This document shows, piece by piece, positions 2,383 to 57,702 of a stretch of DNA of 64,000 bases. The notes under the pieces are model-generated. The model searched no databases and had not been told where the DNA came from. It worked only from the letters and a program-made list of their open reading frames with translations. The stretch covers positions 170,067-234,066 of IMG/VR virus record IMGVR_UViG_3300042563_003307; one strand, given 5' to 3'. The position numbers and the translations under genes are program-made. The stretch comes from a virus. How positions within the stretch are numbered: position 1 is the stretch's first letter; every line of letters starts with the position of its first letter.

Positions 2383-2406
2383 AATTAATCGTATTTATAC
2401 TTGGTT

Positions 2407-4650: not shown

Positions 4651-4698
4651 ACCTATCTATATTTAGATTATATATTCTAATTTTTAGAGAGTATACTA

Positions 4699-5349: not shown

Positions 5350-5367
5350 AATTTATTTTTATTTTTA

Positions 5368-28410: not shown

Positions 28411-29625
28411 TTATAGTTTCAAGAAAACCTTTCTAGTAGCTACGTCCATTCTTGTTATTTGAACGGTAATATTATCGTTCTTTGTAAGTGAATCAACCTT
28501 AACATTATCAGGAAGTTCGGATACGTGAAGTAATCCAACAATTCCATCTCCAACATCTACGAACACTCCATAATCTTTAACAGATTTTATTGTCCCTTTA
28601 ACTTCAACTGGAAAACTTTTATACTTAGTAGCAACATCAGTCCATGGGTCAACAATTTCAACATGCTCTAATTGAGTCAACGTTATTTTATCGTTATTGA
28701 TTATCTCTTTAATCTTAAATTCAATAACATCGCCTGGATTAATTTCTCTAGCCTTATGTTTTCTTGCCATTTCTGTGTTTAAATCATTTGCATGAATCAT
28801 TCCAGTTAAACAATTATCAAATTCAACAAATACTCCGTATTTTGTAGAACCTGTTACGTTACCTTCTTTGGTTTCTCCAGGGGTATTTCTAAGGTCTTCA
28901 ATAGCATTTGGAATAAGCGCTTGAAGATATTTTCTATGGGATACTATTACTGTTCCTTTTTCCGGAGAGAAACTCATCGGTACTACGTACATTTGTGTGT
29001 TAATTACAGAACCAAAGTCTGCAAGTTTATTAATACCAGCTAGGGATCCTGGCATAAAGCAATCAACTCCTTGAACATTAACAAAGTAACCTCCACCTGG
29101 AATCATACTTGTTACAGTTCCCATATATGCAGTATTTCCAGTTTCAGCAGATGCTAAAATTTCTCTTAATGTAGCAGCTTTGATACCAGCTTCAACAGAA
29201 CCTAATACAAATCCTCTAGTACTTTTACTTTTTTCTGCTGTAATTTCAACAGATATTTCAGTTCCAGGAATTAATTTTGCTCTTGAGATTGTAGATTCTT
29301 TTGACAATTGAACATACACCATTTCACGATATCCAATATCGATAGATGCCCATTCCATGTCTACTGCATAAACTTTACCAGTATGCGTTTCTCCAGCATG
29401 TATTACATGTGTTTGATTATTTTCACTCCAGTGACTTTCCATTAAATTAAGAAGTTCTTGAGCATATGGTTCTCTAGAATAAACCTTAACACCATCTGGC
29501 GCTTTTACATGCTGGTTTATTTTTCTAAGAGTAGATGGGCAATCTGCAGAATATGCTTCCCAATCGAAGTTAGAGATATCGTTTGATAAATTCTCTGTTT
29601 GTTTAGTTAAAACGTCTTGTGACAT
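28411..29625 (-). CDS. Ribosomal protein S1-like RNA-binding protein, four S1 domains
   Basis: 404 residues. Four OB-fold S1 motifs can be read: about 77-145 (GETHTGKVYAVDMEWASIDI), 163-232 (NTAYMGTVTSMIPGGGYFVNV), 252-320 (ETKEGNVTGSTKYGVFVEFD) and 338-404 (VEVKGTIKSVKDYGVFVDVG). Domains 3 and 4 are canonical (KYGVFVEF, DYGVFVDV, GLLHVSEL); 1 and 2 are more diverged. Cellular S1 usually has about six domains and more than 550 residues, so this is a shorter version. S1 helps unstructured mRNA onto the 30S subunit. A phage copy may direct ribosomes to phage messages or protect RNA. It ends at a strong terminator and sits among baseplate genes, so late expression is likely. Confidence 0.9.
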   Translation of the reverse strand: MSQDVLTKQTENLSNDISNFDWEAYSADCPSTLRKINQHVKAPDGVKVYSREPYAQELLNLMESHWSENNQTHVIHAGETHTGKVYAVDMEWASIDIGYREMVYVQLSKESTISRAKLIPGTEISVEITAEKSKSTRGFVLGSVEAGIKAATLREILASAETGNTAYMGTVTSMIPGGGYFVNVQGVDCFMPGSLAGINKLADFGSVINTQMYVVPMSFSPEKGTVIVSHRKYLQALIPNAIEDLRNTPGETKEGNVTGSTKYGVFVEFDNCLTGMIHANDLNTEMARKHKAREINPGDVIEFKIKEIINNDKITLTQLEHVEIVDPWTDVATKYKSFPVEVKGTIKSVKDYGVFVDVGDGIVGLLHVSELPDNVKVDSLTKNDNITVQITRMDVATRKVFLKL

Positions 29626-42303: not shown

Positions 42304-42621
42304 TTATATATCTTTATTTTTTAAATAACTGAAACTGTCTGATAAAAAGTAGTCTCGGAGTTTTAGATAGTGTATCAATATAAAGAATATTGAACCTCCT
42401 GGCATTACAACTATTGTTGCTAGACCTAATGTCTTAACCAGATTTATTAATTGTTTTGCAAACTTTTTACCCTCTTCGTCAGTTAAAGGTCTACGTTCTA
42501 TAACGCATGTTGTTAAAAGTTTAGACATTGATTTTGTTTCAACGCCCTCTTTTTTAAGAGCCTCTAAAAATAGGTTAACATCCTTTTTTATCTTTTCTAA
42601 CTCAATTGTTTTATTTTTCAC
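42304..42621 (-). CDS. LETM1-like small membrane protein
   Basis: 105 residues. Residues 55-90 (LTDEEGKKFAKQLINLVKTL, GLATIVVMPGGSIFFILIHY) match the core of the LETM1-like domain, in which a helix leads into a membrane segment with the P-G-G-S turn. There is one hydrophobic segment. Eukaryotic LETM1 proteins bind ribosomes or transport ions; the role of short phage versions is unknown. It overlaps the start of the gene below by 11 bases. Confidence 0.6.
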   Translation of the reverse strand: MKNKTIELEKIKKDVNLFLEALKKEGVETKSMSKLLTTCVIERRPLTDEEGKKFAKQLINLVKTLGLATIVVMPGGSIFFILIHYLKLRDYFLSDSFSYLKNKDI

Positions 42622-43528
42622 AGAGTATAAATTCTTTTTGGTATTTTTGAAGAGCCAATTCTTTTGCTTTGGCCTCTATTTCTATATCTATTTCCATTCC
42701 ATAGGTATCAATAAATTCATATAGATAATCGGCGTGTGCTCGTATAATAACACTAGGGTCTTCGTGTAGTTTTTTGGCACTTGAATAGTGACACAATTGG
42801 CGAATACCTTTAGGCCACGTACGAGCTGCTAAAAGAAGAGCATCTTGTTCGGACATCGGGTCTTCATAGCATCTATGGTGATGGTAGTCGAATGTGATTG
42901 GAGTACCAATTGCTTCGTAAATTCGGTAAAGGTCATTTACAGAGTATTGTGCAGGTTTATCGTCGTTTTCGAGGATTAAACGGGACTGTGCAGAAGGTGA
43001 TAACAATTTAAAGTTTTCGATGAACCTTAGGATTGCTGATTCTTTGTCACCATACGAACCTCCAACATGAATATTCATCGAATAATATGGATTTGCCGGA
43101 AGACCCATCATATCTAATATAAATGCATGTTGATTAAGTTCTTTGATAGAATTATCGACAGTTTTTTGATTTGGACTAGGCAATACACAAAACTGACCAG
43201 GATGGAATCCAATTCGCTGACCGTATTTTTGTACAAGAGAACCCGCGCCTTTTAGTAAATTTGAAATTGTTGGCCAATTTGGCAAATCAGTAAGCTCATA
43301 TTCGGACATCCATGGGAACATACTAGACGACATACGGTACAAAGTAACGCCGTTTTTATGATTCCATTTAATGATTTCTATCATGTCGCGGATATTTGCC
43401 TCTGCAAGTTCTCCAGCGTATTTGATACCTTTTGCGTCAAAGGTTTTTTTAATCATTGAACGCCCGATTTTAATACCACTCTTGTCAAGAGTCAAATTTA
43501 TGCAACAATATCCGTAGTTAGCTCCCAT
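42611..43528 (-). CDS. uvsE: UV-damage endonuclease (UvsE/UVDE family)
   Basis: 305 residues, the usual UvsE length. Family segments are clear: GYCCINLTL near the start, IIKWNHKNGVTLYRMSSSMF, GQRIGFHPGQFCVL, MNIHVGGSYGDK, RLILENDDK and PITFDYHHHRCY. These hold the His and Glu/Asp metal ligands of the TIM-barrel. The enzyme nicks DNA 5' of pyrimidine dimers and other lesions, starting repair without photolyase or UvrABC. It is probably part of a phage DNA maintenance set with the RNase HII, exonuclease and RadA-like protein in this window. Confidence 0.93.
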   Translation of the reverse strand: MGANYGYCCINLTLDKSGIKIGRSMIKKTFDAKGIKYAGELAEANIRDMIEIIKWNHKNGVTLYRMSSSMFPWMSEYELTDLPNWPTISNLLKGAGSLVQKYGQRIGFHPGQFCVLPSPNQKTVDNSIKELNQHAFILDMMGLPANPYYSMNIHVGGSYGDKESAILRFIENFKLLSPSAQSRLILENDDKPAQYSVNDLYRIYEAIGTPITFDYHHHRCYEDPMSEQDALLLAARTWPKGIRQLCHYSSAKKLHEDPSVIIRAHADYLYEFIDTYGMEIDIEIEAKAKELALQKYQKEFILCEK

Positions 43529-45701: not shown

Positions 45702-46454
45702 TTATTTCTCAGGGTTTTCAACTCTCCATTTGTCGTAACGATCTACCACGTCTTGAAGTATTTTAGCTCTTACAATATCTTTATTCTCAAAAACATGGAC
45801 TCCAGTTCCTTTAATTCCGCTCATCAACTTCATAAATCCTGGAAGACCAGCACTAACCTTTGGTATATCATATTGACTAATATCACCAGTAACTAGAACC
45901 TTAGAATTTTTACCCATACGGGTTGTGAATAACATTAATTGTTTAAATGATGCATTTTGAGCCTCATCTAGAATCATAAATGAATCATCAAAGGTATCTC
46001 CTCGCATAAAGGCAAGTGGTTTAAATTCAATAGCACCTGAAGCGATCAGCCCTTCGGTTAATTCATCACCTACTATTTTTTTAAAATTTGAAATATATGA
46101 TTGCATGTACGGATCAACTTTGTCTGCAATATCTCCAGGTAGGAATCCAAGTTTTTCTCCTGATTCTTGAATTGGTTTACATAGGATAATTTTTGAAACT
46201 CCTTTTGTTGCTAGCAACCATAGGGAAGTATAGCATGCAGTAAATGTTTTTGAGGTACCTGCTGGACCTGAACAGAACGTTATTTCATTTTTTTTGATTT
46301 TTTCAAAATAATCATATTGAGATGGTTTTAATTGTACTCCTACTAAATCTAATTCTTTTACTACTGTTTTTTTAGGACGTCCAATTGGAGCTTTTGTAGT
46401 CGTAGGTTTTGCCTTAGTTGTTTTTGATTTACTTTCCACTGTTCTTTTTTGCAT
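45702..46454 (-). CDS. phoH: PhoH-like P-loop ATPase with basic AT-hook-like N-terminus
   Basis: 250 residues. The PhoH core is complete: GPAGTSKT Walker A at 63-70 (the usual GTGK is GTSK), KIILCKPIQESGEKLGFLPG, then FMILDEAQNASFKQLMLFTT Walker B and KVLVTGDISQYD sensor. The N-terminal 35 residues are Lys/Thr-rich with KAPIGRPKKT, an AT-hook-like GRP core that could touch DNA. PhoH proteins are widespread in large phages; a role in RNA or nucleic-acid metabolism is suspected but unproved. It follows the 85-residue UVR-like gene by 17 bases. Confidence 0.9.
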   Translation of the reverse strand: MQKRTVESKSKTTKAKPTTTKAPIGRPKKTVVKELDLVGVQLKPSQYDYFEKIKKNEITFCSGPAGTSKTFTACYTSLWLLATKGVSKIILCKPIQESGEKLGFLPGDIADKVDPYMQSYISNFKKIVGDELTEGLIASGAIEFKPLAFMRGDTFDDSFMILDEAQNASFKQLMLFTTRMGKNSKVLVTGDISQYDIPKVSAGLPGFMKLMSGIKGTGVHVFENKDIVRAKILQDVVDRYDKWRVENPEK

Positions 46455-46471
46455 ACAATTTTTGTATATAT

Positions 46472-46729
46472 TTAATCACCAGTCATCATGACAAGTTCTT
46501 TTAATTTCTTGAGTGATTCACATTTTTCATATTCCTCTAACTCAACAAAATATTCTATTAGGACATCTACGAATTTACTTCGCTGTCCAATTCCATGTGG
46601 AATATCTATCGTGTGACTTCCGTCGTTATAAACAATAAATCTATTAATGGTTTTTGTAAAATTTCTAGTAAGTATGTAATAGCTGGACCTCATCAGAGAA
46701 TCTCTTTCCTCCCCTGTTATATCTCCCAT
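46472..46729 (-). CDS. Small UVR-like motif protein (YEKC family member 1)
   Basis: 85 residues, ending LIEYFVELEEYEKCESLKKL-KE. The C-terminal helix shares the pattern E-x-Y-E-[KR]-C-x-x-[LI]-x-K with three other small proteins here (46819-47082, 48164-48457, 53612-53914). The pattern resembles UVR motifs of UvrB, UvrC, McsA and ClpC. The N-terminal part is a beta-type domain (FIVYNDGSHTIDIPHGIGQR). It may be an adaptor or regulator for a Clp-type ATPase, as McsA is for ClpC in Gram-positive bacteria; this is inference. Confidence 0.72.
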   Translation of the reverse strand: MGDITGEERDSLMRSSYYILTRNFTKTINRFIVYNDGSHTIDIPHGIGQRSKFVDVLIEYFVELEEYEKCESLKKLKELVMMTGD

Positions 46730-46750
46730 CTTTCAGTGGTGTTTTTAAAA

Positions 46751-46764
46751 GTGGCTATAGCCAC
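46751..46764 (-). terminator. Short intrinsic terminator
   Basis: GTGGC and GCCAC around a TATA loop, a perfect palindrome, followed on the minus strand by TTTT then AAAA. It lies about 55 bases after the stop of the 87-residue YEKC gene. Weak because the stem has only five pairs. Confidence 0.5.
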
Positions 46765-46818
46765 ATATAGTATATATTTTAACCAGTAGAATTAAAGATA
46801 TCCGGGCTAAAAAGGTTA

Positions 46819-47082
46819 CTATATTATATTGCTTGATAACATTTCAATTATCTTTTTAAGTTCTTTACATTTTTCATAATCTTCATTATCTTTAAAAAAC
46901 TTAAGAACCGTTTGCACTCCTTCTATTTTCTCTTCAATAGTTCCATCGTGCTTTAAGGCACCCATTTTACCATTAACAATAGAAGAGTACATTGCCTCCA
47001 TCATATCTTCTTTAGAGGCTTCGTGTAGTCTTTTTATAAATTTTCTTGATTCCTCCGGGCTTTCTTCTTCAATACTGCTCAT
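46819..47082 (-). CDS. Small UVR-like motif protein (YEKC family member 2)
   Basis: 87 residues. The N-terminus is acidic (MSSIEEESPEESRKFIKRLH), the middle helical, and the C-terminus reads TVLKFFKDNEDYEKCKELKK, close to UVR motifs where E-D-Y-E-x-A-A-x-L-R-D is usual. Its start overlaps the dnaJ stop by 14 bases, coupling it to a chaperone gene. It probably belongs to the same family as the other three YEKC proteins; function unknown. Confidence 0.74.
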   Translation of the reverse strand: MSSIEEESPEESRKFIKRLHEASKEDMMEAMYSSIVNGKMGALKHDGTIEEKIEGVQTVLKFFKDNEDYEKCKELKKIIEMLSSNII

Positions 47083-47902
47083 TTGGATTTTTTATCTTTT
47101 TAAGTAATTCTATTTCAGTTTCAGTTAAAGTTATAGGAAGAGTTCTAAGTTTCACCATAAGATTTCCGAATCCTTCTGCGTTATATATTGGCATTCCTTG
47201 TCCAACAACTCGTAGAAGTTGTGAATCATGAGAACCTTGAGGAACTTTGATTTTAATAGAATTTAGTTTGGTGTGGATTTCAAATTCTCCTCCGAGTAGA
47301 AGGTCAATCCAGTTTAGGGTTAATTCAACATAGATATCACTGCCATTAACAATAAGTTCAGGGTCTGGTAAAACATTGACAGTTAATATGATATCGCCAG
47401 GAGGCGCAGATGAATTTACAGGGTGATTTGCTCCTTTACCTGGGACTTTAAGTTTTGTTCCAGTTTGGATTCCTCGAGGTATATTGATATTAAATCCACC
47501 AGTACCGACATCAATATATTTTCTGACACCTTCATATGATTCCTCAACTGTTATATTTAATGTAACTCTAACATCATATCCTCTTGCTTGACCGCCAAAG
47601 GATTGATTAAACATGTCGGTAAAATCACCTCCAAAACCATGGAAAGCGTGTTGCCATGCAGATGTGGTGTCCTGGTTTCTTTGGAAATTTCCAAATGGAT
47701 TATGTCCTCTAGATGGATTATCATACTGTTCTTTTTTGACAGGGTCAGAAAGAGTTTCGTATGCTTCAGATATTTTTTTGAATTGCGAGTCGTCTCCTCC
47801 TGTTTTGTCAGGATGGTGTTCTTTTACAAGCTTTCTATAAGATTTTTTAATCTCTTCTGGAGTAGCACCCTTTGAAACGTTAAGAGTTTCGTAATAATTC
47901 AT
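47069..47902 (-). CDS. dnaJ: DnaJ/CbpA-type co-chaperone
   Basis: 277 residues. Residues 1-60 are a J domain with the HPD motif at 30-32 (KEHHPDKTGG). Residues 65-105 are a Gly/Phe-rich linker (GHNPFGNFQRNQDTT, FGGDFTDMFNQSFGG). There is no zinc-finger region, and residues 110-265 form the C-terminal substrate-binding domains (YDVRVTLNITVEESYEGVRK, GGEFEIHTKLNSIKIKVPQG). This is the CbpA-like class. No DnaK is in the window, so it presumably recruits host DnaK. It overlaps the YEKC gene downstream. Confidence 0.93.
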   Translation of the reverse strand: MNYYETLNVSKGATPEEIKKSYRKLVKEHHPDKTGGDDSQFKKISEAYETLSDPVKKEQYDNPSRGHNPFGNFQRNQDTTSAWQHAFHGFGGDFTDMFNQSFGGQARGYDVRVTLNITVEESYEGVRKYIDVGTGGFNINIPRGIQTGTKLKVPGKGANHPVNSSAPPGDIILTVNVLPDPELIVNGSDIYVELTLNWIDLLLGGEFEIHTKLNSIKIKVPQGSHDSQLLRVVGQGMPIYNAEGFGNLMVKLRTLPITLTETEIELLKKIKNPNEQY

Positions 47903-47908
47903 TAGAGT

Positions 47909-48118
47909 CTATTTTTTGGAATTTCTAACTCTAACTGTTTGTTTCATTACTGGAATTGGTGCAGATTTAACTTGTTTAATGCTATCTGCTTTTTTCTCGG
48001 CAACTAGAGCTGCTTGACCTTTTTTATAAGTTGCAATTTCTCTTAGTTGTTTGTTTTCCATACAGATTGCAATTCTTTCTAGACTATCTGCAATCTTTTT
48101 TAAATATTCTTCGTTCAT
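47909..48118 (-). CDS. Small basic helical protein, unknown function
   Basis: 69 residues. An N-terminal amphipathic helix (MNEEYLKKIADSLERIAICM) is followed by a Lys/Arg-rich tail (KQTVRVRNSKK). It is 6 bases upstream of dnaJ and just after the terminator at 48157-48176. It may bind nucleic acid; not recognised. Confidence 0.68.
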   Translation of the reverse strand: MNEEYLKKIADSLERIAICMENKQLREIATYKKGQAALVAEKKADSIKQVKSAPIPVMKQTVRVRNSKK

Positions 48119-48156
48119 ATCGATATACTTTATTAGTACATTATATATTAAAGAAA

Positions 48157-48176
48157 AAAGGTCCTATAGGACCTTT
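48157..48176 (-). terminator. Intrinsic terminator overlapping a stop codon
   Basis: AAAGGTCC (48157-48164) and GGACCTTT (48169-48176) form a perfect 8-bp stem around TATA, followed on the minus strand by T-rich sequence. The stop codon of the 97-residue gene (48164-48166) lies at the stem-loop junction, so a terminating ribosome would sit on the hairpin. Confidence 0.75.
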
Positions 48177-48457
48177 GCTTTCTTAAGTATCTTATTTATT
48201 TGGGCGCATTTTTCGTACTCTTCAAGCTCTTCAAAAAGCTCTAACATATCTCCTAGAATTTTAACAATAGGTTTAATATCAAGTTCTTGTTTTTCCATTA
48301 ATTTAAAATCAACTCCTTTAGAAATTATTTCAGCATAATTTTCATTTGCAAGCTTGATTTTTAAATCATACATTACGTTATTCATTTCGGCTTCTTTTTT
48401 AATAGTGTCGATTTCGTCTTCTTGTTCTTCAAATAAATTGTTAAAGTCTTCGTCCAT
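48164..48457 (-). CDS. Small UVR-like motif protein (YEKC family member 3)
   Basis: 97 residues, acidic at the N-terminus (MDEDFNNLFEEQEDEIDTIK). The C-terminus reads MLELFEELEEYEKCAQINKI, the same UVR-like pattern as the other three. It has its own copy of the phage promoter (48482-48512) with an AATTAAAACC leader, and it ends within a terminator, so it is a single-gene transcription unit. That arrangement suggests independent, probably early control. Function unknown. Confidence 0.75.
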   Translation of the reverse strand: MDEDFNNLFEEQEDEIDTIKKEAEMNNVMYDLKIKLANENYAEIISKGVDFKLMEKQELDIKPIVKILGDMLELFEELEEYEKCAQINKILKKAKVL

Positions 48458-48481
48458 AATTATAAGGTTTTAATTTGATAT

Positions 48482-48512
48482 GTAAATATAATACAAATTC
48501 CTGACACAGAAA
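48482..48512 (-). promoter_or_regulatory. Phage promoter, one-base-shorter spacer
   Basis: On the minus strand TTTC (48509-48512) is 18 bases from TATATTTAC (48482-48490), the only member of the set with a spacer of 18 instead of 19. A TTTT at the 19-base position may partly substitute. It drives the 97-residue YEKC gene. Confidence 0.65.
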
Positions 48513-48531
48513 AACTTTTTATCAAAAAGTT
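48513..48531 (-). terminator. AT-only hairpin after the exonuclease gene
   Basis: AACTTTTT (48513-48520) and AAAAAGTT (48524-48531) pair perfectly around a three-base loop. It lies 9 bases after the exonuclease stop and abuts the promoter at 48482-48512. Weak as a terminator because the stem contains only one G-C pair. Confidence 0.4.
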
Positions 48532-48540
48532 ATTAACAAT

Positions 48541-49272
48541 TTAAAATGGTACCTCATCTACCATATCCATTCCTGATATTTTAAGCATCACATTCATAGT
48601 GGCTTTAACATCTCCTTCACAATATGTTTTTATTCTTTCAATACTACCATTCCAATACTCTTCAGTTGTACTACTTGCTTCCATTATAGTTTTAGGAGAT
48701 GGAATATTAAGAGTGTTACAAATTAAATCTAGTGATGCACTATTCCAACCTGCAAATTTCCAAATTTCATAAGTATCTACTAGACAGTTTTCCCAAGGTT
48801 TTTTCTTTTGTAAATGAAATTGATGAGGTATTGCTACTCCGTTTACAATGGATCTTTTTATTAGATATGGAAAATCAAAGTTTTTAATATTATGTCCAGT
48901 AAATTGAACTGAAGGACTTTGATTAAAAACAGCTTGAGCTGTACCCATAAACTCTTTAAGAATTTCTATTTCGCTACCTTTATAGAAAGAACGAATTTTT
49001 GAGGTTGTAATACCATCTTGGAATTTAATTTGTCCCATAGAAATTACAATAACTTTGCTAAATTCTGGACTAAGCGCCGACATATGAGTATACATTTCCG
49101 CATCAGTAAGTTTTGCCAAATGAGATTCAGTATTTCTATGCTGTTCTGCTTTTTTTGCCCAATGCTTTATTCCGCCTGGTCTTTTAATACAGAATTCTTC
49201 GTAATTCGGATATTCTGAAGATGTTTCAATGTCAATAAATAACATTGACTTTAGTTCGGTAGTATTATACAT
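48541..49272 (-). CDS. 3'-5' exonuclease, DnaQ-like (DNA polymerase B exo2 type)
   Basis: 243 residues. ExoI: FIDIET at 12-17 with Asp and Glu. ExoII: FTGHNIKNFDFPYLI with Asp. ExoIII: YCEGDVKATMNV with Asp. This D-E-D-D arrangement and the size match stand-alone exonucleases related to the B-family polymerase exonuclease domain. It presumably proofreads or degrades DNA or RNA; no polymerase domain is fused. It overlaps the 82-residue gene upstream by 8 bases. Confidence 0.88.
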   Translation of the reverse strand: MYNTTELKSMLFIDIETSSEYPNYEEFCIKRPGGIKHWAKKAEQHRNTESHLAKLTDAEMYTHMSALSPEFSKVIVISMGQIKFQDGITTSKIRSFYKGSEIEILKEFMGTAQAVFNQSPSVQFTGHNIKNFDFPYLIKRSIVNGVAIPHQFHLQKKKPWENCLVDTYEIWKFAGWNSASLDLICNTLNIPSPKTIMEASSTTEEYWNGSIERIKTYCEGDVKATMNVMLKISGMDMVDEVPF

Positions 49273-49513
49273 TCTTTGAGTCGTTTAAATCTTTAAAAAT
49301 CTTATAAATTGATATTGGGTATACACATTTTTTTACACTTCTATCTGACTTTTCATTCATCCAATAATATGGGACTCCATGTAATTTAGTCAGTGAATCA
49401 ATTAAAGAAACTAATTGACCATACATAAGAATCCCTGCAAATTTAAAATAGTAATTCTCACCAATCTTTGGTTTAACTACGTAAATTTTAGGTTCTTTTT
49501 TATCTTTTGCCAT
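49265..49513 (-). CDS. Small basic protein upstream of the exonuclease
   Basis: 82 residues, Lys-rich (MAKDKKEPKIYVVKPKIGEN, DRSVKKCVYPISIYKIFKDL). The middle is hydrophobic but not long enough for a confident membrane helix. It overlaps the exonuclease start by 8 bases. Not recognised. Confidence 0.65.
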   Translation of the reverse strand: MAKDKKEPKIYVVKPKIGENYYFKFAGILMYGQLVSLIDSLTKLHGVPYYWMNEKSDRSVKKCVYPISIYKIFKDLNDSKNV

Positions 49514-49544
49514 ATACTAATTATACACAAAAAAATAAAAAAGT

Positions 49545-49763
49545 TTAAAGATGTGTAGTGTCAACGTGGTCATGTGACTGTCGAAGTATCATATATCGAT
49601 CATATGATATACTCATTTCGATCCATCCTCCAGTAATAGATTTGGGTACTTCGTGATGGTCAATTATATAGTTTGGTGGGGTAGTAACTCTTTCTAATAA
49701 AAAGTCCATCATCAAATCTGATTCTCTATTATGAACCCATATTTTTACAAATGTATTATTCAT
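49545..49763 (-). CDS. Small phage protein, unknown function
   Basis: 72 residues (MNNTFVKIWVHNRESDLMMD, YDRYMILRQSHDHVDTTHL), His-rich at the C-terminus (HDHVDTTH). It starts inside the end of the glycosyltransferase gene (8-base overlap). No motif beyond the His cluster. Confidence 0.65.
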   Translation of the reverse strand: MNNTFVKIWVHNRESDLMMDFLLERVTTPPNYIIDHHEVPKSITGGWIEMSISYDRYMILRQSHDHVDTTHL

Positions 49764-51606
49764 GTTCGTTATATATTATATTTGCCGCCATCTCTTCTTG
49801 ATTAAATCTTGACACTGTATTTAACGGTGCACCTGGATTTTCGTCATACGCCCAATCTTTTAATCCTAACTCTTCAAACCTGTTTTTGATTTGCTCGTTA
49901 TAATAATAACCTATTGTACGTACTCGTCTTTGAATATCTGCTCTTGATAGATTATGAGTATTCTGTCCATTTGCATTATTATATAAGAATTGAATATACC
50001 CTAATTTTGGTATTTTGCAAGTTATTGCTTTTAAGAAAGTTCTTACAACCAACTCATAATCATCGGCTATTACAAGACTTCTATTATGTCCTCCTATTTC
50101 AAAATAAGTAGATCGTCTCCATGCTCTTACGTGATTTGGTACACCAACTATATGTCTAATTGTTTTAGGATTAATATTCTGTTGATTAGAAACATTTAGT
50201 GTCTTTCCAGCATACTCTTCTTTTCTATATGATCCGTATCCAAGCGCAAATCCTTCGCTATATGTTAAAGAATTCCAGTTTTCATCAACTTCAACAGTGT
50301 CATTAAAAAAGAATCCGGCTTCTGGATGTTTTTTAGCTGCTTTATAAAGGTCTTCAGTACACCATGGAACTAATAAATCGTCATGGTCTAATTCAGCTAA
50401 AATAAAACCTTTAGCCATTGAGCAACATCTCCATTTAACCTCACCAATATTTCCACCGCTTTTTTCTCTAAAATCATAAAGGCGTACTCTTGGGTCTTTT
50501 GCTGCAATAGATTCTGCTATTTTTAATGTTTTACCACCATCAGTAGAGTCATTTACTAGTACCCATTCCCAATTGTTGTATGTTTGGTCTAGCAGCGATT
50601 GATATGTATTAAATAGTTTTTCACCAGTATTATATATTGGGGTAAAATATGATATCATTGAACTATCTTCTAATCCATCTGGGTTCAACAGACTTTCCAT
50701 TAAACACTGATACGCGATTTGTCCAGCATCTCTAGTGGAAACTTCTTTGTCAAGATTTAACCATTTTCGTCTAAATTGAAGTGGCATGCTTGCCATTTCT
50801 GGAAAGTTTTCCCAAGATTCTCCTCTAGTTATAATAACGTCTGGTTTAAATGAGGCTAGGGATATTGTGATGTCTTTGTCATTTTTTAAATACTTAATCT
50901 CCAAACTATCATCTTCATAGTCAAGTATTTTAAGTGATTTTAATTCAGGCTCATCATGCCCAATATACAATACTTTAGGAACTTTTGCAGTTGATTTTTT
51001 CTGTAAGTAATTGTAGTGTGATAGTACTCTTCCCGTAAATGTAAACCATTCAGGATGTTCGGCATGAACGGAACTTATAAAGATTCCATCAGCTTGATAA
51101 TCAGGCAAATATGAATATTCATATTCATTATAAACATCAATACTAACAATATATTGAGCTAAATCAACTCCCTGCACTTTCATAAATTTAGGATATGCTT
51201 TTCTATATGTTAAGTTTGTAAAATCTCTTCCGGCAACATGTTGTGAAACTACATGGATTTTTTTGTCTGGATTCTTTAAAGAAGATTGCAAAACATATTC
51301 ATAGAAACCTTCATGCATGATATTATCATCATCTAAAAAATAAACCCAACCATCTGATAATTTTGAAATTATGGCAGAACATTGAGGATATAACATTCCT
51401 ATAGCATCTCCTTTTTCAAAATGGTATGTTGTTAGATCGTCTTTTAAATCACATAGTAATTCTGCATCAATATCTTTAAGATTTGTAGTGTCAAATACTA
51501 TGTGCCAATTTATTTCGCATCCATTTGGTATATTGTTAAAGACAGATTCTTTAACAGTCTTTAAATTCTGTAGGCGCGTTGCTCGAGTTATTATACTAAT
51601 TTTCAT
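49756..51606 (-). CDS. Tandem-domain glycosyltransferase
   Basis: 616 residues. The N-terminal 200 residues form one GT-A-like domain with a DDD at 92-94 (YFLDDDNIM). A middle part (KVLYIGHDEPELKSLKILDY, KPDVIITRGESWENF) is Rossmann-like. From about residue 316 a second, canonical GT2 domain begins (YFTPIYNTGEKLFNTYQSLL, WVLVNDSTDGG) with AELDHDDLLVPW, the DxD motif, and GVPNHVRAWRRSTYFEIGGH. Such proteins transfer sugars to lipids, polysaccharides, proteins or modified bases. The acceptor is not evident: modified cytosine, fibre proteins and host surface glycans are all possible. Confidence 0.83.
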   Translation of the reverse strand: MKISIITRATRLQNLKTVKESVFNNIPNGCEINWHIVFDTTNLKDIDAELLCDLKDDLTTYHFEKGDAIGMLYPQCSAIISKLSDGWVYFLDDDNIMHEGFYEYVLQSSLKNPDKKIHVVSQHVAGRDFTNLTYRKAYPKFMKVQGVDLAQYIVSIDVYNEYEYSYLPDYQADGIFISSVHAEHPEWFTFTGRVLSHYNYLQKKSTAKVPKVLYIGHDEPELKSLKILDYEDDSLEIKYLKNDKDITISLASFKPDVIITRGESWENFPEMASMPLQFRRKWLNLDKEVSTRDAGQIAYQCLMESLLNPDGLEDSSMISYFTPIYNTGEKLFNTYQSLLDQTYNNWEWVLVNDSTDGGKTLKIAESIAAKDPRVRLYDFREKSGGNIGEVKWRCCSMAKGFILAELDHDDLLVPWCTEDLYKAAKKHPEAGFFFNDTVEVDENWNSLTYSEGFALGYGSYRKEEYAGKTLNVSNQQNINPKTIRHIVGVPNHVRAWRRSTYFEIGGHNRSLVIADDYELVVRTFLKAITCKIPKLGYIQFLYNNANGQNTHNLSRADIQRRVRTIGYYYNEQIKNRFEELGLKDWAYDENPGAPLNTVSRFNQEEMAANIIYNEHE

Positions 51607-51656
51607 ATTATTTATATAATAAAAATGAAATTAGTTTATATTTTTTTGGGATTTAT

Positions 51657-52358
51657 CTAGATACCATGCTTGATTCGGTTAAAAAGCATGCTCTTCATAA
51701 TTGGTAACATACAATCAGCGTAAGGAGGTGGTGTTGTTTTAAATTTTGCATCAAATCTAAAAAATCTATAAGAAGTACTTTCTAATTCTGTTCTTTTAAT
51801 AAACTCAGAAATCTCTTTGATTGAATTTTCTAACTCTTCAACTTTCTTTAAATTAAACTCGCTCCAATTTATTTTAAAAGATGAAGGTTCTATATAAGAA
51901 TAGACGTGAATTTTTTGATTTACAATATCGATATAAAAAATGTACCCTTTGGTATTGAGATGCTTTTTCTCTGGAATCTCAGTAATTGTGCACTGTGATT
52001 CTACAATTCTCCATTTATCTCTAATAGTTCGATATAAATCTTCTAGTTTTTCTATTGCAACATCGCAAATATCATACATTGAATTGATACCATTAGTTTC
52101 TTCTGGATAATCATACTTTAAAGACATAGTATCAACATCAATTCCAGTAATTATTCTGGTTTTGCTTTCAATTTCGTCTCTTCCGTATTTAATATTATAT
52201 AGTCTTTCGAGTTCTGTCTCTACTTCTAAAATAGCAGAATACAAGTTATTAGCAGAAATCATTTTTTTAATTTTATCGATTCCGGCTAGTAGCTTGTAAT
52301 ATTTTAACTCATAGTCATGAGGTGGCTCTATTAGCCAATTTGTTTCAAAGACGTTCAT
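51657..52358 (-). CDS. Phage protein of unknown function
   Basis: 233 residues, helical N-terminal half (YKLLAGIDKIKKMISANNLY, ICDVAIEKLEDLYRTIRDKW), beta-type middle (GYIFYIDIVNQKIHVYSYIE), helical C-terminus. No catalytic motif. It is separated from neighbours by about 50-60 bases on both sides. Not recognised. Confidence 0.67.
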   Translation of the reverse strand: MNVFETNWLIEPPHDYELKYYKLLAGIDKIKKMISANNLYSAILEVETELERLYNIKYGRDEIESKTRIITGIDVDTMSLKYDYPEETNGINSMYDICDVAIEKLEDLYRTIRDKWRIVESQCTITEIPEKKHLNTKGYIFYIDIVNQKIHVYSYIEPSSFKINWSEFNLKKVEELENSIKEISEFIKRTELESTSYRFFRFDAKFKTTPPPYADCMLPIMKSMLFNRIKHGI

Positions 52359-52419
52359 ACCTATATCTATCTTAAGTATAATAAATTATATAGGTATTTT
52401 TGTTTTATATTACTATAAT

Positions 52420-52731
52420 CTAGGACTTAGTTCTTTTAGTAATGGTGCTTTGAACTCTGTTTGGAGTTTTTCTAGGATTAACGGTAGTTAGTCCCCATTG
52501 TAGAATAAACCAACTTGCCTCTTTTTCAGCGGCTGCTTTTGAAATTTTAAGCACTTCTCGTATTCTTTCAACAGAATATTTAATAAATGTCTCTTCTTTC
52601 TCTGGAGTAGTTTTATAATCCATGTACCATGACGGGTTTGTTTTAACATCTTCGTATGTTACTCCATGGTCCTTAAGCTGATGGTTAATCAATTCAACAA
52701 AAAGCTCTCTTTGTTTTTCTCGGTTTGTCAT
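52420..52731 (-). CDS. Small helical phage protein
   Basis: 103 residues (MTNREKQRELFVELINHQLK, VERIREVLKISKAAAEKEAS), basic C-terminus (RKTPNRVQSTITKRTKS). Its ATG overlaps the upstream stop by four bases (52728-52731), showing coupling. Not recognised; a DNA- or RNA-binding role is conceivable from charge only. Confidence 0.65.
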   Translation of the reverse strand: MTNREKQRELFVELINHQLKDHGVTYEDVKTNPSWYMDYKTTPEKEETFIKYSVERIREVLKISKAAAEKEASWFILQWGLTTVNPRKTPNRVQSTITKRTKS

Positions 52732-52925
52732 AATGAAATTAATGAAATAAATGTATTTTTATCGTTTAGTCTTACAAAATCAGAATATGATATATCCACT
52801 AGGAATGAATCTTTAAAGTATGTCGGAGATATTGTAATTGGATACGTTTCTGCATCTAATTTTCCTTTAATTATTTTATCCAAATATTCAAGCTCGCCAG
52901 AATGTACGTAAAAATAGATTTTCAT
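52728..52925 (-). CDS. Small phage protein between ClpP and helical protein
   Basis: 65 residues (MKIYFYVHSGELEYLDKIIK, YSDFVRLNDKNTFISLISL), alternating strand and helix. It directly abuts the clpP stop (52926) and overlaps the next gene by four bases. Not recognised. Confidence 0.65.
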   Translation of the reverse strand: MKIYFYVHSGELEYLDKIIKGKLDAETYPITISPTYFKDSFLVDISYSDFVRLNDKNTFISLISL

Positions 52926-53612
52926 TTATTTTCTAGATTTTGATTTAACTGGATTAATAATCTCGTCGATTATACCGTACTTAAGTGCCTCTTCTGCGCT
53001 TAACCATAAATCTCGGGTAGCATCAGACATAACCTGCTCTGGTTTCTTGTCACAATATGAACCTAACAAATTAAATAGTTCTTTGTTGACTTTTTGCCAT
53101 TCTGCCCAGTCTATTTCGGCATCTTGGATATTCCCACTGAATCCTCCTGAGGATTGGTGTAACATAGTAGTCGAGTGTCTTAGTGAACTTCTCTTGCCTT
53201 TAGTTCCAGCTCCTAATAGTACTGAACCCATCGAAGCTGCCATTCCTGTATTTACTGTTTTGATATCAGATTTAATCCATTCCATAACGTCAATCATAGA
53301 AAGCCCTGATTTTACAGAACCTCCTGGACTATCAATATGCATTGTTATATCTCGGTCATCTGTGCTATCTAAAAACATTAATTGAGCTTGTACAATAGTT
53401 GACATATTGTCATTAACAGGCCCTGCAACCCACAATAATCGATCGATCATCAACCTTGAAAATATATCCATTTGAGTAGCTCTTAATTGTCTCTCTTCTA
53501 GAATATAAGGTGTCATTGATGATTCAATTTGATTTTTATAGTAGTGCATGTTCATTGAACTTATGCCCTTGTCTAGCATTGCGTATCTTTCGAATTCTTT
53601 TCCGTGATTCAT
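52926..53612 (-). CDS. clpP: ClpP-like serine protease
   Basis: 228 residues with an N-terminal extension of about 40 residues beyond typical ClpP. Catalytic triad: S127 in MAASMGSVLLGAGTKGKR, H152 in TTMLHQSSGG, D201 in DATRDLWLSAEEAL. The family turn MHIDSPGGSV is at 91-100. ClpP forms a two-ring barrel that degrades proteins unfolded by a Clp ATPase; a ClpC-type ATPase is encoded 2.1 kb upstream. The gene overlaps the YERC-motif gene by one base (TAATG at 53610-53614). Confidence 0.93.
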   Translation of the reverse strand: MNHGKEFERYAMLDKGISSMNMHYYKNQIESSMTPYILEERQLRATQMDIFSRLMIDRLLWVAGPVNDNMSTIVQAQLMFLDSTDDRDITMHIDSPGGSVKSGLSMIDVMEWIKSDIKTVNTGMAASMGSVLLGAGTKGKRSSLRHSTTMLHQSSGGFSGNIQDAEIDWAEWQKVNKELFNLLGSYCDKKPEQVMSDATRDLWLSAEEALKYGIIDEIINPVKSKSRK

Positions 53613-53914
53613 TATAGTTTCTTTAATAGTTTTTTAATTTGAGTACATCTTTCGTATTTTTCATGGAATGTATAGAAGTCCAGGCTTTTTAATATTGATT
53701 GCTTATAAGAACTTTTAGGAAGATCTGCATACTGTATATCTCCATTTTCATGGACAAAATAACATAATAATGTTTCTCTATCTTCTTTGTTAATATTTGC
53801 TTCGATAAAATCTACAATTCTGTCGTGAAATTCGCAATCGTTTGTAATTGAATTAAACCCATCTCCATCTATGTAGAATTCAGGGATATCTGTTCCTTTC
53901 ATGCACTCAATCAT
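53612..53914 (-). CDS. Small UVR-like motif protein (YERC, family member 4), coupled to ClpP
   Basis: 100 residues. The N-terminal part is a small beta/alpha domain (PEFYIDGDGFNSITNDCEFH); the C-terminus reads YTFHEKYERCTQIKKLLKKL, the fourth copy of the UVR-like pattern. Its stop overlaps the clpP ATG by one base and its start overlaps the TS-fold gene by four bases. Placement directly before clpP makes it the best candidate in the family for a Clp adaptor, by analogy with McsA-type UVR adaptors. This is inference. Confidence 0.77.
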   Translation of the reverse strand: MIECMKGTDIPEFYIDGDGFNSITNDCEFHDRIVDFIEANINKEDRETLLCYFVHENGDIQYADLPKSSYKQSILKSLDFYTFHEKYERCTQIKKLLKKL

Positions 53915-54765
53915 ATCTCTTTTATATTAAGATACCCTGATAATAAATTATAATATGTTTCTTTGGTCAACACATTATCTATCGTGGTATTTATATTATT
54001 TATCATCGAAATTCCTGAAGGGGTTAAACTCATAACTCCATTTTCAATATTAAAAATAGGTTCTAATAATTCCATTAAGTATTGTTTCTCGTGAAGAGGC
54101 TCGTGAACGATCCTTTCGGCTAATTCAAAATGTCTTTCGTAAAAGTGGATGTTATCAGCGTAATGATGGTATACTCCAAGTTCTAATTCTGGGTAAGTTG
54201 ACTTTAACCAAAGGTAAACATGTTGTTGGACGAATGCAAAGAATGGAGCATCAAATGTAAGTCCATAAAAAATATCATTAGATCGCATTTGAACTTTCAT
54301 ATCTAGCTTATTGTGTCTGATTGAAAAGTTTAGGTACATAGTACATACAAAATCTTTATTACCTTCAAACTGGTATTTTGGCTGATTTAAGAAAGCAATT
54401 GCTTGTCTAGTGTTCTTGTCTGCTTTAAGAGAATCGACTACCCATTGTAATTGTTCTCCGAAAAGAAGAGAACCGTAATTTGAATTAATTTCGTTTGTTC
54501 CAGGATTTGTTATGTTTTTCCAGAATCCAGAAAATTTATTAATGTAGTCAATATTGGTATCTTTATTAAGGTACCATGCTAATTCGCCGGCAAAATACTT
54601 CCAATTAAACTCTCTACTATTAAAATTAGCAAATGGTTCTTTTGGATTAATTGGATATCCGGCATAAAGTAATTCGGTAACTTCAAGGTCTCTTGGTTTA
54701 GAGACCTCTCCGTGTATTTTTATATCTGAAATTATGTGTTTAAATTGGTGTGAGAATGTTTTCAT
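53911..54765 (-). CDS. Thymidylate synthase-fold enzyme, predicted dCMP (hydroxy)methylase type
   Basis: 284 residues. The TS fold is clear: ELAWYLNKDTNIDYI at 61-75, Cys141 (DFVCTMYLNF) as nucleophile, R161-S162 (QMRSNDIFYG) as phosphate and Arg-Ser site, and H207-x-Y209 (IHFYER). In E. coli thymidylate synthase the substrate-base residue after G-L-P-F is Asn177; here G-L-T-F is followed by Asp172. T4 dCMP hydroxymethylase has Asp at this place, and Asp there favours dCMP. The enzyme may therefore make methyl- or hydroxymethyl-dCMP. Divergent from ThyA in the PCH-like motif. Substrate is inferred. Confidence 0.82.
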   Translation of the reverse strand: MKTFSHQFKHIISDIKIHGEVSKPRDLEVTELLYAGYPINPKEPFANFNSREFNWKYFAGELAWYLNKDTNIDYINKFSGFWKNITNPGTNEINSNYGSLLFGEQLQWVVDSLKADKNTRQAIAFLNQPKYQFEGNKDFVCTMYLNFSIRHNKLDMKVQMRSNDIFYGLTFDAPFFAFVQQHVYLWLKSTYPELELGVYHHYADNIHFYERHFELAERIVHEPLHEKQYLMELLEPIFNIENGVMSLTPSGISMINNINTTIDNVLTKETYYNLLSGYLNIKEI

Positions 54766-54778
54766 GTTTATAATTTTA

Positions 54779-55702
54779 TTATATTACGTCAAAAAAGAAC
54801 ATGTGAAAGAATCTTGCGTTCTCAATAGCATCGCCAAAATATTTACTTGGCGCATGAATTTGTTTAGAATCGAATAGAACTAAACGGTTGTATACATTAC
54901 CAACCTCATCGATTTTATCAAAATTAGTTGAATCATAAAAATTTGCTTGAGCATTCTTGCCTTTAAATGTATCTTCAAACACAGAATAGTCTTCAAAATT
55001 ATCAAATCTTTTTTTACCAGTATTTTTACCAGAATAGAAAGATGTACCTGTTTCGAATGGAGCATCTTTAGTTAAGAATACCATTCCTGCATACATCTGA
55101 CTGTCAACATGAAATACGGGTAGATCGCTTGCTACACAATATTGGAATACTCCATTTGCATAACTTTCATAATTCCAGTTTATAATTTCGCGGCCAATTA
55201 TCTTTTCTAATTTCTCTTTAGTGCCATCTAGAATAAACCTAGTTTGACTTCTTTTACCTTTGTGATAATCAGAGGGGTTGTATTCTAGATTATTCATTGC
55301 AAAATCTCTAATAAAGTCAGGATCTGCATAAAAATTATCAACTACAATTAGACTTTTATTTTCATTATAGAATCCAGAATAATAAGCAATAAAATTATCA
55401 ATGCTTCCTGGATTATAAATAAGTTCTCCAAATTTAACTTGAATCTTTGCGCCTTTAGAGATATTAAAAACTAATCCAACACTATCATCTTCTAAAGGAT
55501 AATATTTAGAAACATCTGGACGACTAATAACTGTTAATGGTATTTCAATATCATCGACTATCAATGAACTAACTGGTTTAAAGGAATCACCGTCTTTTAC
55601 TAGAATCCAACCAGTTGCATTATAGTTATTATCGGATACTTTGGTAATTGAATCAAAAAACCAAAAAACGTTTGGATCTTTTGTAAAAGTGTTATAAATC
55701 AT
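54779..55702 (-). CDS. 2OG-Fe(II) oxygenase-like protein (DUF6445-like)
   Basis: 307 residues. The N-terminal 100 residues are a beta domain (ATGWILVKDGDSFKPVSSLI, VISRPDVSKYYPLEDDSVGL) also seen beside glycosyltransferases. From about 117 (LIVVDNFYADPDFIRDFAMN) a double-stranded beta-helix is suggested by H198-x-D200 (PVFHVDSQMYAGMVFL), H283 (SKQIHAPSKYFG) and R297 (ENARFFHMF), the iron- and 2-oxoglutarate-binding pattern. Candidate substrates are modified cytosine made by the enzyme downstream, or prolines in the collagen-like fibres. Neither is shown. It is 13 bases from the TS-fold gene start. Confidence 0.72.
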   Translation of the reverse strand: MIYNTFTKDPNVFWFFDSITKVSDNNYNATGWILVKDGDSFKPVSSLIVDDIEIPLTVISRPDVSKYYPLEDDSVGLVFNISKGAKIQVKFGELIYNPGSIDNFIAYYSGFYNENKSLIVVDNFYADPDFIRDFAMNNLEYNPSDYHKGKRSQTRFILDGTKEKLEKIIGREIINWNYESYANGVFQYCVASDLPVFHVDSQMYAGMVFLTKDAPFETGTSFYSGKNTGKKRFDNFEDYSVFEDTFKGKNAQANFYDSTNFDKIDEVGNVYNRLVLFDSKQIHAPSKYFGDAIENARFFHMFFFDVI

Positions 55703-55728: not shown

Positions 55729-57702
55729 TTATTTAAAAGAAAGTTTCTCATCTCCTTTTTTATATGAAATCGTGTACGTTTTATTTCCTTTAACAATTTC
55801 TTTAGCTAAAATACCATCTGCTAATAAGTCTTCAACATACGTTTGAATTGCTCTTTTAAGAGGTCTAGCTCCATATTGAGCATCATACCCACGTTCTGCT
55901 AAAAATACTATCGCCGTTTTTGCAACTTTAATAATATATTCTTGTTCAACCATTCTTTCAATTACTTTTTGAATTTCGATTTCTGCAATTTTAGCAACAT
56001 CTTCTTGTTTTAATCCATCAAACAATACTATTTCATCCAATCTATTTAAGAATTCCGGAGCAAATTTGTTTTTAAGCTCTTTTCTGATAACAGTTTCCAT
56101 TTCCATTTTGTGGGTGGCCGTAGAACTTGAACTTGAGAATCCGATTCCAGCCCCAAATTCTGCAACTCTTTTTGCTCCAACATTACTTGTCATAATAATG
56201 ATAGTATTCGTAAAGTCAATAGTTCTACCAAGAGTATCTGTTAAACGACCCTCATCTAAAACCTGTAACAAGATATTGAAAATATCTGGGTGGGCCTTTT
56301 CAACTTCATCAAATAATACTACTGAATATGGTTTACGTCGGACTTGTTCTGTTAACTGTCCACCATCCTCATGTCCTTCATATCCCGGAGGAGAACCAAT
56401 AAGTCTACTTACGTTAAACTTTTCTTGGTATTCTGACATGTCGATTCTGATTAAAGAATCCTCGCTTCCGAAATAATATTCAGAAAGGGCTTTAACAGTT
56501 TCAGTTTTACCAACTCCAGTAGGTCCAATAAACATAAATGAACCGATAGGTTTTTTAGATGAACTTACTCCAGTTCGGCTTCTTTTAATAACTCTACATA
56601 GACCTTCAACCGCAGTATCTTGCCCGATAATCATCGCTTTTAATTCATTTTCCATATCAATAACAATTCTGCTCTCGTCATCGGTCATTCTTGTTACCGG
56701 AATTCCAGTAGATTCAGAAATTACTTCAGCAATATCTTCATAAGTTACTGCCTTCTTATTTAGTCTAAGCGTCTCCTCCCATTCTTTGGTTCTTTTTGTT
56801 ATCTCTTCTCGCTTACTAATTTCAAGGTCTCTTAAATTTCCGGCTTTTTCATAATTAGTAGCATCTGCTGCTTTTAACTTTGCGGCTTTTAATTTATCAG
56901 CTTCAATTTCAAGTTCTTTAATAATTTCTGGAATTTTTACCTCTTTTAAATGTACTTTTGCTCCAGCCTCGTCCATAACATCAATTGCTTTGTCCGGTAA
57001 TTCTCTTTGAGTAATATATCGGTCAGATAATACTACACAGGCTTTAATAGCGTCAGGAGTATATGATACTGAATGGAAGTCTTCGTAATTTGGTTTAATT
57101 CTGTCTAGAATTTCGATTGCATCTTCAAGGGATGGTGGGTCTATAAAGATTTCTTGGAATCTTCTGGTAAGAGCTCCATCGGTTTCAATATTTTCACGAT
57201 ACTCATCGATTGTCGTAGCACCAATACATTGTACTTGTCCTCTTGCCAATGCCGGTTTTAAGATATTACTAGCATCTAATGAACCACTTACACCACCAGC
57301 GCCTACAATTGTGTGAATCTCATCAATAAAGACAATAACATCTGGGTTCTCTTTAAGTTCATCAACAATGTTTTTCATTCGTTCCTCAAATTCTCCACGG
57401 TATTTTGTACCTGCAACTACGTTTGCAATATTAAGAGCAATTATACGTTTATTAAGAAGAGTCATTGCAACTTTCTTTTCAACAATACGTTGCGCAATTG
57501 CTTCAACTAGTGCAGTTTTACCAACCCCAGGATCCCCTAAAATAATTGGATTGTTTTTCTTTCTACGAGAAAGGATTTGACATATTCTATGGACCTCTTT
57601 TTCTCTTCCGATGATAGGGTCAAGTTTCCCATCTGCCGCTAGTTTAGTTAAGTCCTCTCCGAATTGGTCAATGAATGGAGTATTTGTTTTCTTACTGGTC
57701 AT
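55729..57702 (-). CDS. ClpC-type AAA+ ATPase lacking the N-domain
   Basis: 657 residues; full ClpC has about 810-850. It starts directly before the first AAA module (FGEDLTKLAADGKLDPIIGR), so the N-terminal Clp-repeat domain is absent. Walker A1 GDPGVGKT at 56-63, Walker B1 VFIDEIHT, middle domain with a UVR-like stretch at 277-295 (LKAADATNYEKAGNLRDLE), Walker A2 GPTGVGKT at 393-400, and Walker B2 VVLFDEVEKA. The ClpP-docking tripeptide IGF is at 520-522 (FGAGIGFSSS). It should unfold substrates for the phage ClpP. Without the N-domain, substrate or adaptor recognition must rely on the middle domain. Confidence 0.93.
   Translation of the reverse strand: MTSKKTNTPFIDQFGEDLTKLAADGKLDPIIGREKEVHRICQILSRRKKNNPIILGDPGVGKTALVEAIAQRIVEKKVAMTLLNKRIIALNIANVVAGTKYRGEFEERMKNIVDELKENPDVIVFIDEIHTIVGAGGVSGSLDASNILKPALARGQVQCIGATTIDEYRENIETDGALTRRFQEIFIDPPSLEDAIEILDRIKPNYEDFHSVSYTPDAIKACVVLSDRYITQRELPDKAIDVMDEAGAKVHLKEVKIPEIIKELEIEADKLKAAKLKAADATNYEKAGNLRDLEISKREEITKRTKEWEETLRLNKKAVTYEDIAEVISESTGIPVTRMTDDESRIVIDMENELKAMIIGQDTAVEGLCRVIKRSRTGVSSSKKPIGSFMFIGPTGVGKTETVKALSEYYFGSEDSLIRIDMSEYQEKFNVSRLIGSPPGYEGHEDGGQLTEQVRRKPYSVVLFDEVEKAHPDIFNILLQVLDEGRLTDTLGRTIDFTNTIIIMTSNVGAKRVAEFGAGIGFSSSSSTATHKMEMETVIRKELKNKFAPEFLNRLDEIVLFDGLKQEDVAKIAEIEIQKVIERMVEQEYIIKVAKTAIVFLAERGYDAQYGARPLKRAIQTYVEDLLADGILAKEIVKGNKTYTISYKKGDEKLSFK

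Follow-up and report, generated by a model that had tools for sequence, protein, structure and literature searches.

Four small phage proteins with a common UVR-like C-terminal hairpin and their possible link to a phage Clp system

We analyzed a 64,000-nucleotide stretch of viral DNA (the window), corresponding to positions 170,067 to 234,066 of the 234-kb record IMGVR_UViG_3300042563_003307. It contains four small genes, whose products are referred to here as P1 to P4 and which a first-pass annotation had described as related through a common C-terminal motif. All four open reading frames (ORFs) were found on the minus strand at the coordinates given in Table 1 (stop codon counted), and the plus-strand translations of these regions were full of stops. 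The C-terminal segment common to P1-P4 was F-x3-E-x-Y-E-[KR]-C-x2-[LI]. Its central part, E-x-Y-E-[KR]-C-x-x-[LI], was present in all four proteins, with the Cys located 10-15 residues before the C-terminus, and was not found in the remaining 64 of the 68 ORFs in the window. When the ORFs were shuffled 2000 times, the mean number of motif proteins was 0.0015 and the maximum was one per shuffle, which confirms the grouping of the four ORFs. Furthermore, each of the six pairwise local alignments among P1-P4 was equalled by only 0-2 of 1000 shuffles, and a core profile run over the 234-kb record matched exactly P1-P4, all in the window. The YEKC sequence in an ORF at 52488-52649 was considered as a fifth member and rejected as a chance occurrence, since this ORF is another frame inside the gene at 52420-52731.

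P1-P4 almost certainly form a real family. Their clusters were joined by BLAST at E-values of 1e-6 to 1e-10, and the likeness extended beyond the motif. These results, together with the core profile, the pairwise shuffles and the gene cassette described below, support the earlier proposal of a paralogous family. Related places in viral contigs numbered 155 for P1, 17 for P3 and 14 for P4. The relatives make up a large family that occurs almost exclusively in uncultured phage contigs, and genomes of the present lineage retain three to five copies of the module each. When P1-P4 and a 46-member alignment were compared with Pfam, PHROGs, NCBIfam and PDB sequences, no family was obtained for the window proteins. 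Likewise, when 50,697 phage records were searched by tblastn, no convincing match was obtained for P1, P2, P3 or an architecture of about 140 amino acids (aa; see below), and a partly hand-edited query of 80-90 aa gave a single weak match (E 0.02) in a podovirus in the same records. The family is widespread and has neither a database model nor an assigned role.

The genes for P1, P2 and P3 lie in a cassette with the order exonuclease-P3-(69-aa gene)-DnaJ-P2-P1-PhoH-(RNase H), which was observed in about 20 contigs with exonuclease identity down to 40%. All P1, P2 and P3 genes of the cassette that were recognized by BLAST, that is, with no selection for the motif, encoded E-x-[YF]-E-x-C. P2 was not recognized by BLAST in three cassette contigs (L051, L047, and L116), and a motif scan gave a P2-like protein in L047 and L116. 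Most of the core collections used below were gathered via the motif itself, and the apparent invariance of the motif in them is therefore inflated. As for the genetic context stated in the first-pass annotation, the overlap of P2 with dnaJ (14 bases) and that of P4 with clpP (one base) were verified, whereas the promoter and terminator assigned to P3 are consensus matches only.

AlphaFold models of P1 and P4, with a predicted local distance difference test score (pLDDT) of 85.4 and 82.5, respectively, both consisted of a helix, a beta hairpin and two further helices joined by a turn, in this order. The last helix was opened by YEKC at residues 67-70 in P1 and by YERC at residues 87-90 in P4, so that both models contain the two-helix hairpin of UVR motifs, in which an aromatic residue followed by Glu starts the second helix. 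Foldseek searches of the two models against the PDB gave no significant match. When the P1 model was searched against BFVD, the best matches were uncharacterized phage proteins (E 0.008 to 0.1, probability near 1), and a weak match to a "UVR domain-containing protein [uncultured marine phage]" was also obtained (36 columns, 1.3 Å).

Subsequently, the module was compared with the UVR motif (PF02151) using 30 reference UVR segments from genomes of one bacterial phylum and 89 non-redundant phage cores. In hhalign, 35 core columns were aligned without a gap at a score of 20.06. None of 150 column shuffles and none of 150 hydrophobicity-preserving shuffles reached this score (maximum 15.8), and the best-fitting UVR subset was the Tyr type, with a score of 21.9. 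When a UVR hidden Markov model (HMM) built from bacterial chromosomes only was used to rank 2342 phage ORFs, places 1-43 were occupied solely by phage ClpC, which served as the positive control, and by motif proteins, including those of contigs L117 (E 5.1e-7) and L046 (a P3 orthologue, E 4.8e-5). With the Pfam UVR model, whose curated cut-off is 21.5 bits, the L117 protein passed at 21.6 bits, and the scores of other relatives were 17.5 bits (L116, a P3 orthologue) and 13.7 bits (L113 and L041). The L117 protein also matched the C-terminus of the NCBIfam McsA model (positions 140-174, E 6e-4).

The module resembles UVR in its helical hairpin, the aromatic-Glu pair that opens the second helix, a small residue at +3, Leu or Ile at +6, and the hydrophobic spacing of the first helix. 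It differs in having an invariant Cys for the first Ala, F/Y for the Ala at -6, and mostly replaced R-D. None of the proteins has the UVR sequence of Ala-Ala and then [LI]-R-D after the aromatic-Glu pair: all have Cys at the first Ala, and R-D at +7/+8 is in a minority, the +8 residue being K or R in 50 of 90 cores and D or E in 19 of 90. The first-pass annotation had stated that the usual A-A is replaced by C-x. The Cys was indeed found in all; however, the residue following it was Ala in 42 of 90 non-redundant cores, so that C-A and the other C-x pairs replace the usual AA with about equal frequency.

These differences raise the alternative that the module is a convergent E/K-rich helix-turn-helix that merely resembles UVR, in which case the proteins would have a phage fold of their own (a helix, a beta hairpin and two helices) and unrelated roles. 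The conserved Cys, the bulky F/Y at -6 and the K at +8 are foreign to UVR, no PDB fold was matched, and all four window proteins scored under the Pfam UVR cut-off. In addition, the profile score fell to 11.85 when Y-E-K-C was masked, which means that the UVR relation rests heavily on that tetrapeptide. Convergence would nevertheless have to produce a gapless match over 35 columns, and it is hard to reconcile with the shuffled controls, the blind ranking, and the L117 protein, which passes the Pfam cut-off and matches McsA. We therefore consider convergence improbable. The earlier description of the motif as UVR-like thus holds for the profile searches and the predicted hairpin, but not for the Pfam threshold; the module is in all likelihood a diverged UVR, and P1-P4 are not formal UVR members.

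The same window carries genes for a ClpP peptidase and a ClpC-type ATPase. Assignment of the phage ClpP as a head-maturation protease, the top match in PHROGs, was rejected because NCBIfam ranks ClpP peptidases far higher. Among 24 large contigs examined, 16 had clpP, and the same 16 had a ClpC match that covered most of its length. In each of these 16 contigs, a core-module match was located just upstream of clpP, and the order clpC-thymidylate synthase-P4-clpP was found in each of the eight stretches that were read out. The sole exception to adjacency was L233, in which a family 25 glycosyltransferase gene was inserted between P4 and clpP. The P4 gene also overlaps the thymidylate synthase gene by four bases. 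Identity among P4 orthologues went down to 24%, yet the E, Y-E and C were invariant. A group of cassette phages without clp genes (G035, G036, G037, and G043) was also considered and was unsupported, as these contigs end about 6-14 kb past the cassette, on the clp side.

Residues 2-645 of the phage ClpC aligned to residues 154-794 of Staphylococcus aureus ClpC and comprised two AAA+ domains and a UVR-type M-domain. The alignment begins at Staphylococcus residue 154, and no Clp_N domain was detected in the phage ClpC at E 1e-6. The M-domain motif was intact (YEKAGNLRD in the phage and FENAANLRD in Staphylococcus), with the tip residues Y, R and D kept. In relatives with an intact gene, the clpC frames were about 655-682 aa. 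Two relatives had an interrupted clpC. In L236 (G031; 1765-5380), the gene was split into a 431-aa first half and a frame with an intein-splicing match just before AAA_2; this match was weak (19.6 bits, under the cut-off), and this phage clpC probably holds an intein. In L232 (G024; 2343-4356), clpC was in two overlapping frames of 524 and 153 aa, which is a frameshift, either real or a sequencing error.

Table 1 Features of the window. Positions are those of the window; module sequences are given in the last column.
Feature	Position	Strand	Description
P1	46472..46729	-	85 aa; helix and beta hairpin at the N-terminus, followed by the UVR-like helical hairpin at the C-terminus; ELEEYEKCESLKKL
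P1 UVR-like hairpin	46484..46585	-	residues 49-82; AlphaFold secondary structure H49-63, H67-82
P2	46819..47082	-	87 aa; C-terminal module common to P1-P4; DNEDYEKCKELKKI
P2 module core	46834..46938	-	sequence alignment
P3	48164..48457	-	97 aa; C-terminal module common to P1-P4; orthologues score against UVR models; EELEEYEKCAQINKIL
P3 module core	48173..48277	-	sequence alignment
P4	53612..53914	-	100 aa; directly upstream of clpP; module KYERCTQIKKLL
P4 UVR-like hairpin	53618..53716	-	residues 67-99; AlphaFold secondary structure H67-83, H87-99
Promoter-like site upstream of P3	48459..48486	-	sigma-70-like TTTACA-16-TATAAT, 11/12
Terminator-like stem-loop	48157..48176	-	at P3 end
PhoH-like ATPase	45702..46454	-	directly after P1 in the cassette
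DnaJ	47069..47902	-	J and C-terminal domains; after P3 and before P2 in the cassette
Predicted 3'-5' exonuclease (DNA_pol_B_exo2)	48541..49272	-	before P3 in the cassette
ClpP	52926..53612	-	Ser/His/Asp motifs ASMG, LHQSSGG, DATRD; best NCBIfam match ClpP peptidase
Thymidylate synthase family protein	53911..54765	-	between clpC and P4 in all compared lineages
DUF6445 protein	54779..55702	-	separates the clpC and thymidylate synthase genes; missing from this site in the other compared lineages
ClpC-type AAA+ ATPase lacking the N-domain	55729..57702	-	two Walker A motifs; GIGF, candidate ClpP-binding loop
UVR motif in ClpC M-domain	56809..56904	-	NYEKAGNLRD; candidate docking site; the 234-kb record has no other Pfam UVR match
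Protein with S1 RNA-binding domains	28411..29625	-	404 aa; ribosomal protein S1-like
UV-endonuclease UvdE	42611..43528	-	DNA-repair gene; Pfam E 2.4e-60
Protein with family 2 glycosyltransferase domain	49756..51606	-	616 aa

The overlap of P4 with clpP in the window and its position next to clpP in other lineages suggest translational coupling and matched amounts of the two proteins. Accordingly, P4 might regulate the phage ClpP itself or assist in its assembly, serving as an inhibitor, as a chaperone of the propeptide type or as a timer that degrades itself, with no contact to the M-domain of the ATPase. The module, however, also occurs in P1-P3 and in clpP-less phage contigs, and a role specific to ClpP would leave the conserved hairpin unexplained. 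This explanation is thus quite improbable.

The module was not confined to proteins of the P1-P4 type. The core pattern occurred in at least 600 stretches of viral contigs, 54 of which were confirmed, and a similar pattern occurred in 71 stretches, one of them confirmed, when 257 Gb of genomes from bacteria and archaea were searched; the enrichment contrast is rough, because the two search patterns differ slightly. The chromosomal case (L112, Bacteroidales; 4875-5141) adjoins proteins that by eye resemble a WYL-type regulator and a KWG-repeat protein. The same C-terminus was found on other N-termini in at least two further architectures. One is a family of about 140 aa, which heads a conserved gene row (L130, L132, L142, L143, L166 and others) with an HD-domain phosphohydrolase-like protein and a protein judged by eye to be sigma-factor-like. 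The other is a family of 80-110 aa that is often near terminase. A Clp-type ATPase (AAA_2) was present in just one of the 35 contigs with these other architectures, suggesting that the usual partner of the module is not a phage Clp ATPase, host ClpC being a possible partner.

This distribution is what would be expected if the module were a true UVR derivative serving as a general docking or dimerization hairpin of many unrelated small phage proteins, adjacency to clpP being one context among several. The partners would be the same protein, another module protein, or a host UVR protein (UvrB, UvrC, DUF151 nuclease, or McsA-like); indeed, sampled genomes of one bacterial phylum have up to five UVR matches each, and host partners therefore exist. 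However, many of the Clp-poor contigs are short fragments, and such a general role leaves unexplained both the strict P4-clpP-clpC order across divergent lineages and a ClpC that lacks the N-domain while keeping the M-domain. A general hairpin of this kind is quite possible, though short of even odds.

In Staphylococcus ClpC, the M-domain residues F436, R443 and D444 hold an inactive, head-to-head resting state; MecA contacts F436 and breaks the head-to-head contacts, for which it needs the N-domain of ClpC, and deletion of the N-domain leaves ClpC repressed unless its M-domain is also mutated (PMC5699869). ClpS inhibits an N-domain-deleted mycobacterial ClpC1 via residues near the Uvr motif (PMC6274998). 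Since the phage ClpC is without the N-domain, adaptors of the MecA type would have nowhere to bind, and the phage ClpC would be expected to need an activator directed to the M-domain, for which proteins with a UVR-like tip are candidates.

Hence, we propose that P1-P4 dock onto UVR-type coiled coils through their hairpin and that Clp ATPases are acted on by P4 and probably by others, a reading to which we assign a probability of roughly 0.4. Each protein would consist of a variable N-terminal part, which is a helix and beta hairpin in the P1 and P4 models, and a variant of the UVR hairpin at the C-terminus. This hairpin keeps the Y-E of UVR (the aromatic tip residue and the Glu after it), with the invariant Cys in place of the first core Ala, the bulky F/Y opposite it, and the R-D pair usually changed to K-K or similar. 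From the family, the hairpin prediction, the profile relation, the gene linkage and the ClpC anatomy, we infer binding, competition and substrate delivery as follows. The hairpin would compete for the head-to-head contact of the ClpC M-domain and open the resting state, and the N-terminal part would deliver a substrate or partner. The prevalence of K/R at +8 of the module, the position equivalent to D444, suggests that the module may contact the acidic D444 of ClpC in a heterotypic manner.

Considered separately, action of P4 on ClpC has close to an even chance, and action of P1-P3 on ClpC is doubtful. The Pfam UVR scores of P1-P4 under the cut-off, the fall in profile score on masking of Y-E-K-C, the lack of a significant PDB match in Foldseek and the scarcity of AAA_2 beside the other architectures weigh against the proposal, as do the location of P1-P3 in a separate cassette about 5-30 kb from clpP/clpC and the fact that gene order by itself is no proof of function. 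Taken together, the first-pass suggestion of adaptors for the phage Clp system is plausible for P4, given its linkage to clpP/clpC and the anatomy of a ClpC with an M-domain and no N-domain, but it is weakened as a general rule. A broader form, in which uncultured, probably Bacteroidota, phages share a virus-specific UVR-hairpin docking code, carried on different heads by several proteins per genome, that would switch the N-domain-less phage ClpCP (and host ClpC) by breaking M-domain contacts and feed it chosen substrates, is unlikely.

If docking is true, it would show how a phage ClpC is controlled without the usual adaptor platform, and phage takeover would gain a layer of protein degradation. 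Should the partner be other than Clp, the virus-enriched UVR variant still provides a handle on many unannotated genes near those for packaging, sigma-like proteins, PhoH, DnaJ and exonuclease.

Several known systems can be compared with P1-P4. McsA, the activator of the McsB arginine kinase, likewise has a C-terminal UVR-type hairpin, and it is the C-terminus of McsA that the L117 protein matches. The phage proteins are, however, half as long and without the zinc-finger part, and an mcsB neighbor was not seen; P1-P4 gave no McsA match in NCBIfam, and CxxC pairs are absent from their sequences. The action of MecA on the M-domain tip resembles the role proposed here, but it depends on the domain missing from the phage ClpC, and the general searches gave no MecA family match. 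In plants, UVR-DUF151 proteins were trapped on CLPC1, and CLPF is listed as an adaptor (PMC8889267). CLPF, EXECUTER and the UVR-DUF151 proteins are likewise UVR proteins in complexes trapped on a ClpC chaperone; they are chloroplast proteins with other N-terminal domains, and a sequence relation is claimed for the hairpin only. Gp53 of phage SPO1, an adaptor-like protein for ClpC that modulates the ClpCP protease (PMC6873191), is also phage-encoded, but it has a size of 25 kDa and targets the ClpC of its Bacillus host, and the likeness is by description only. Finally, moraphages are T4-related large aquatic phages with mostly predicted Bacteroidota hosts, whose common genes include Clp ATPase, PhoH and often DnaJ (PMC12619734); UVR has no occurrence in the main text of that report. 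The T4-like structure genes, PhoH, DnaJ and Clp ATPase shared with them suggest that the lineage of the window belongs to the moraphages or their relatives.

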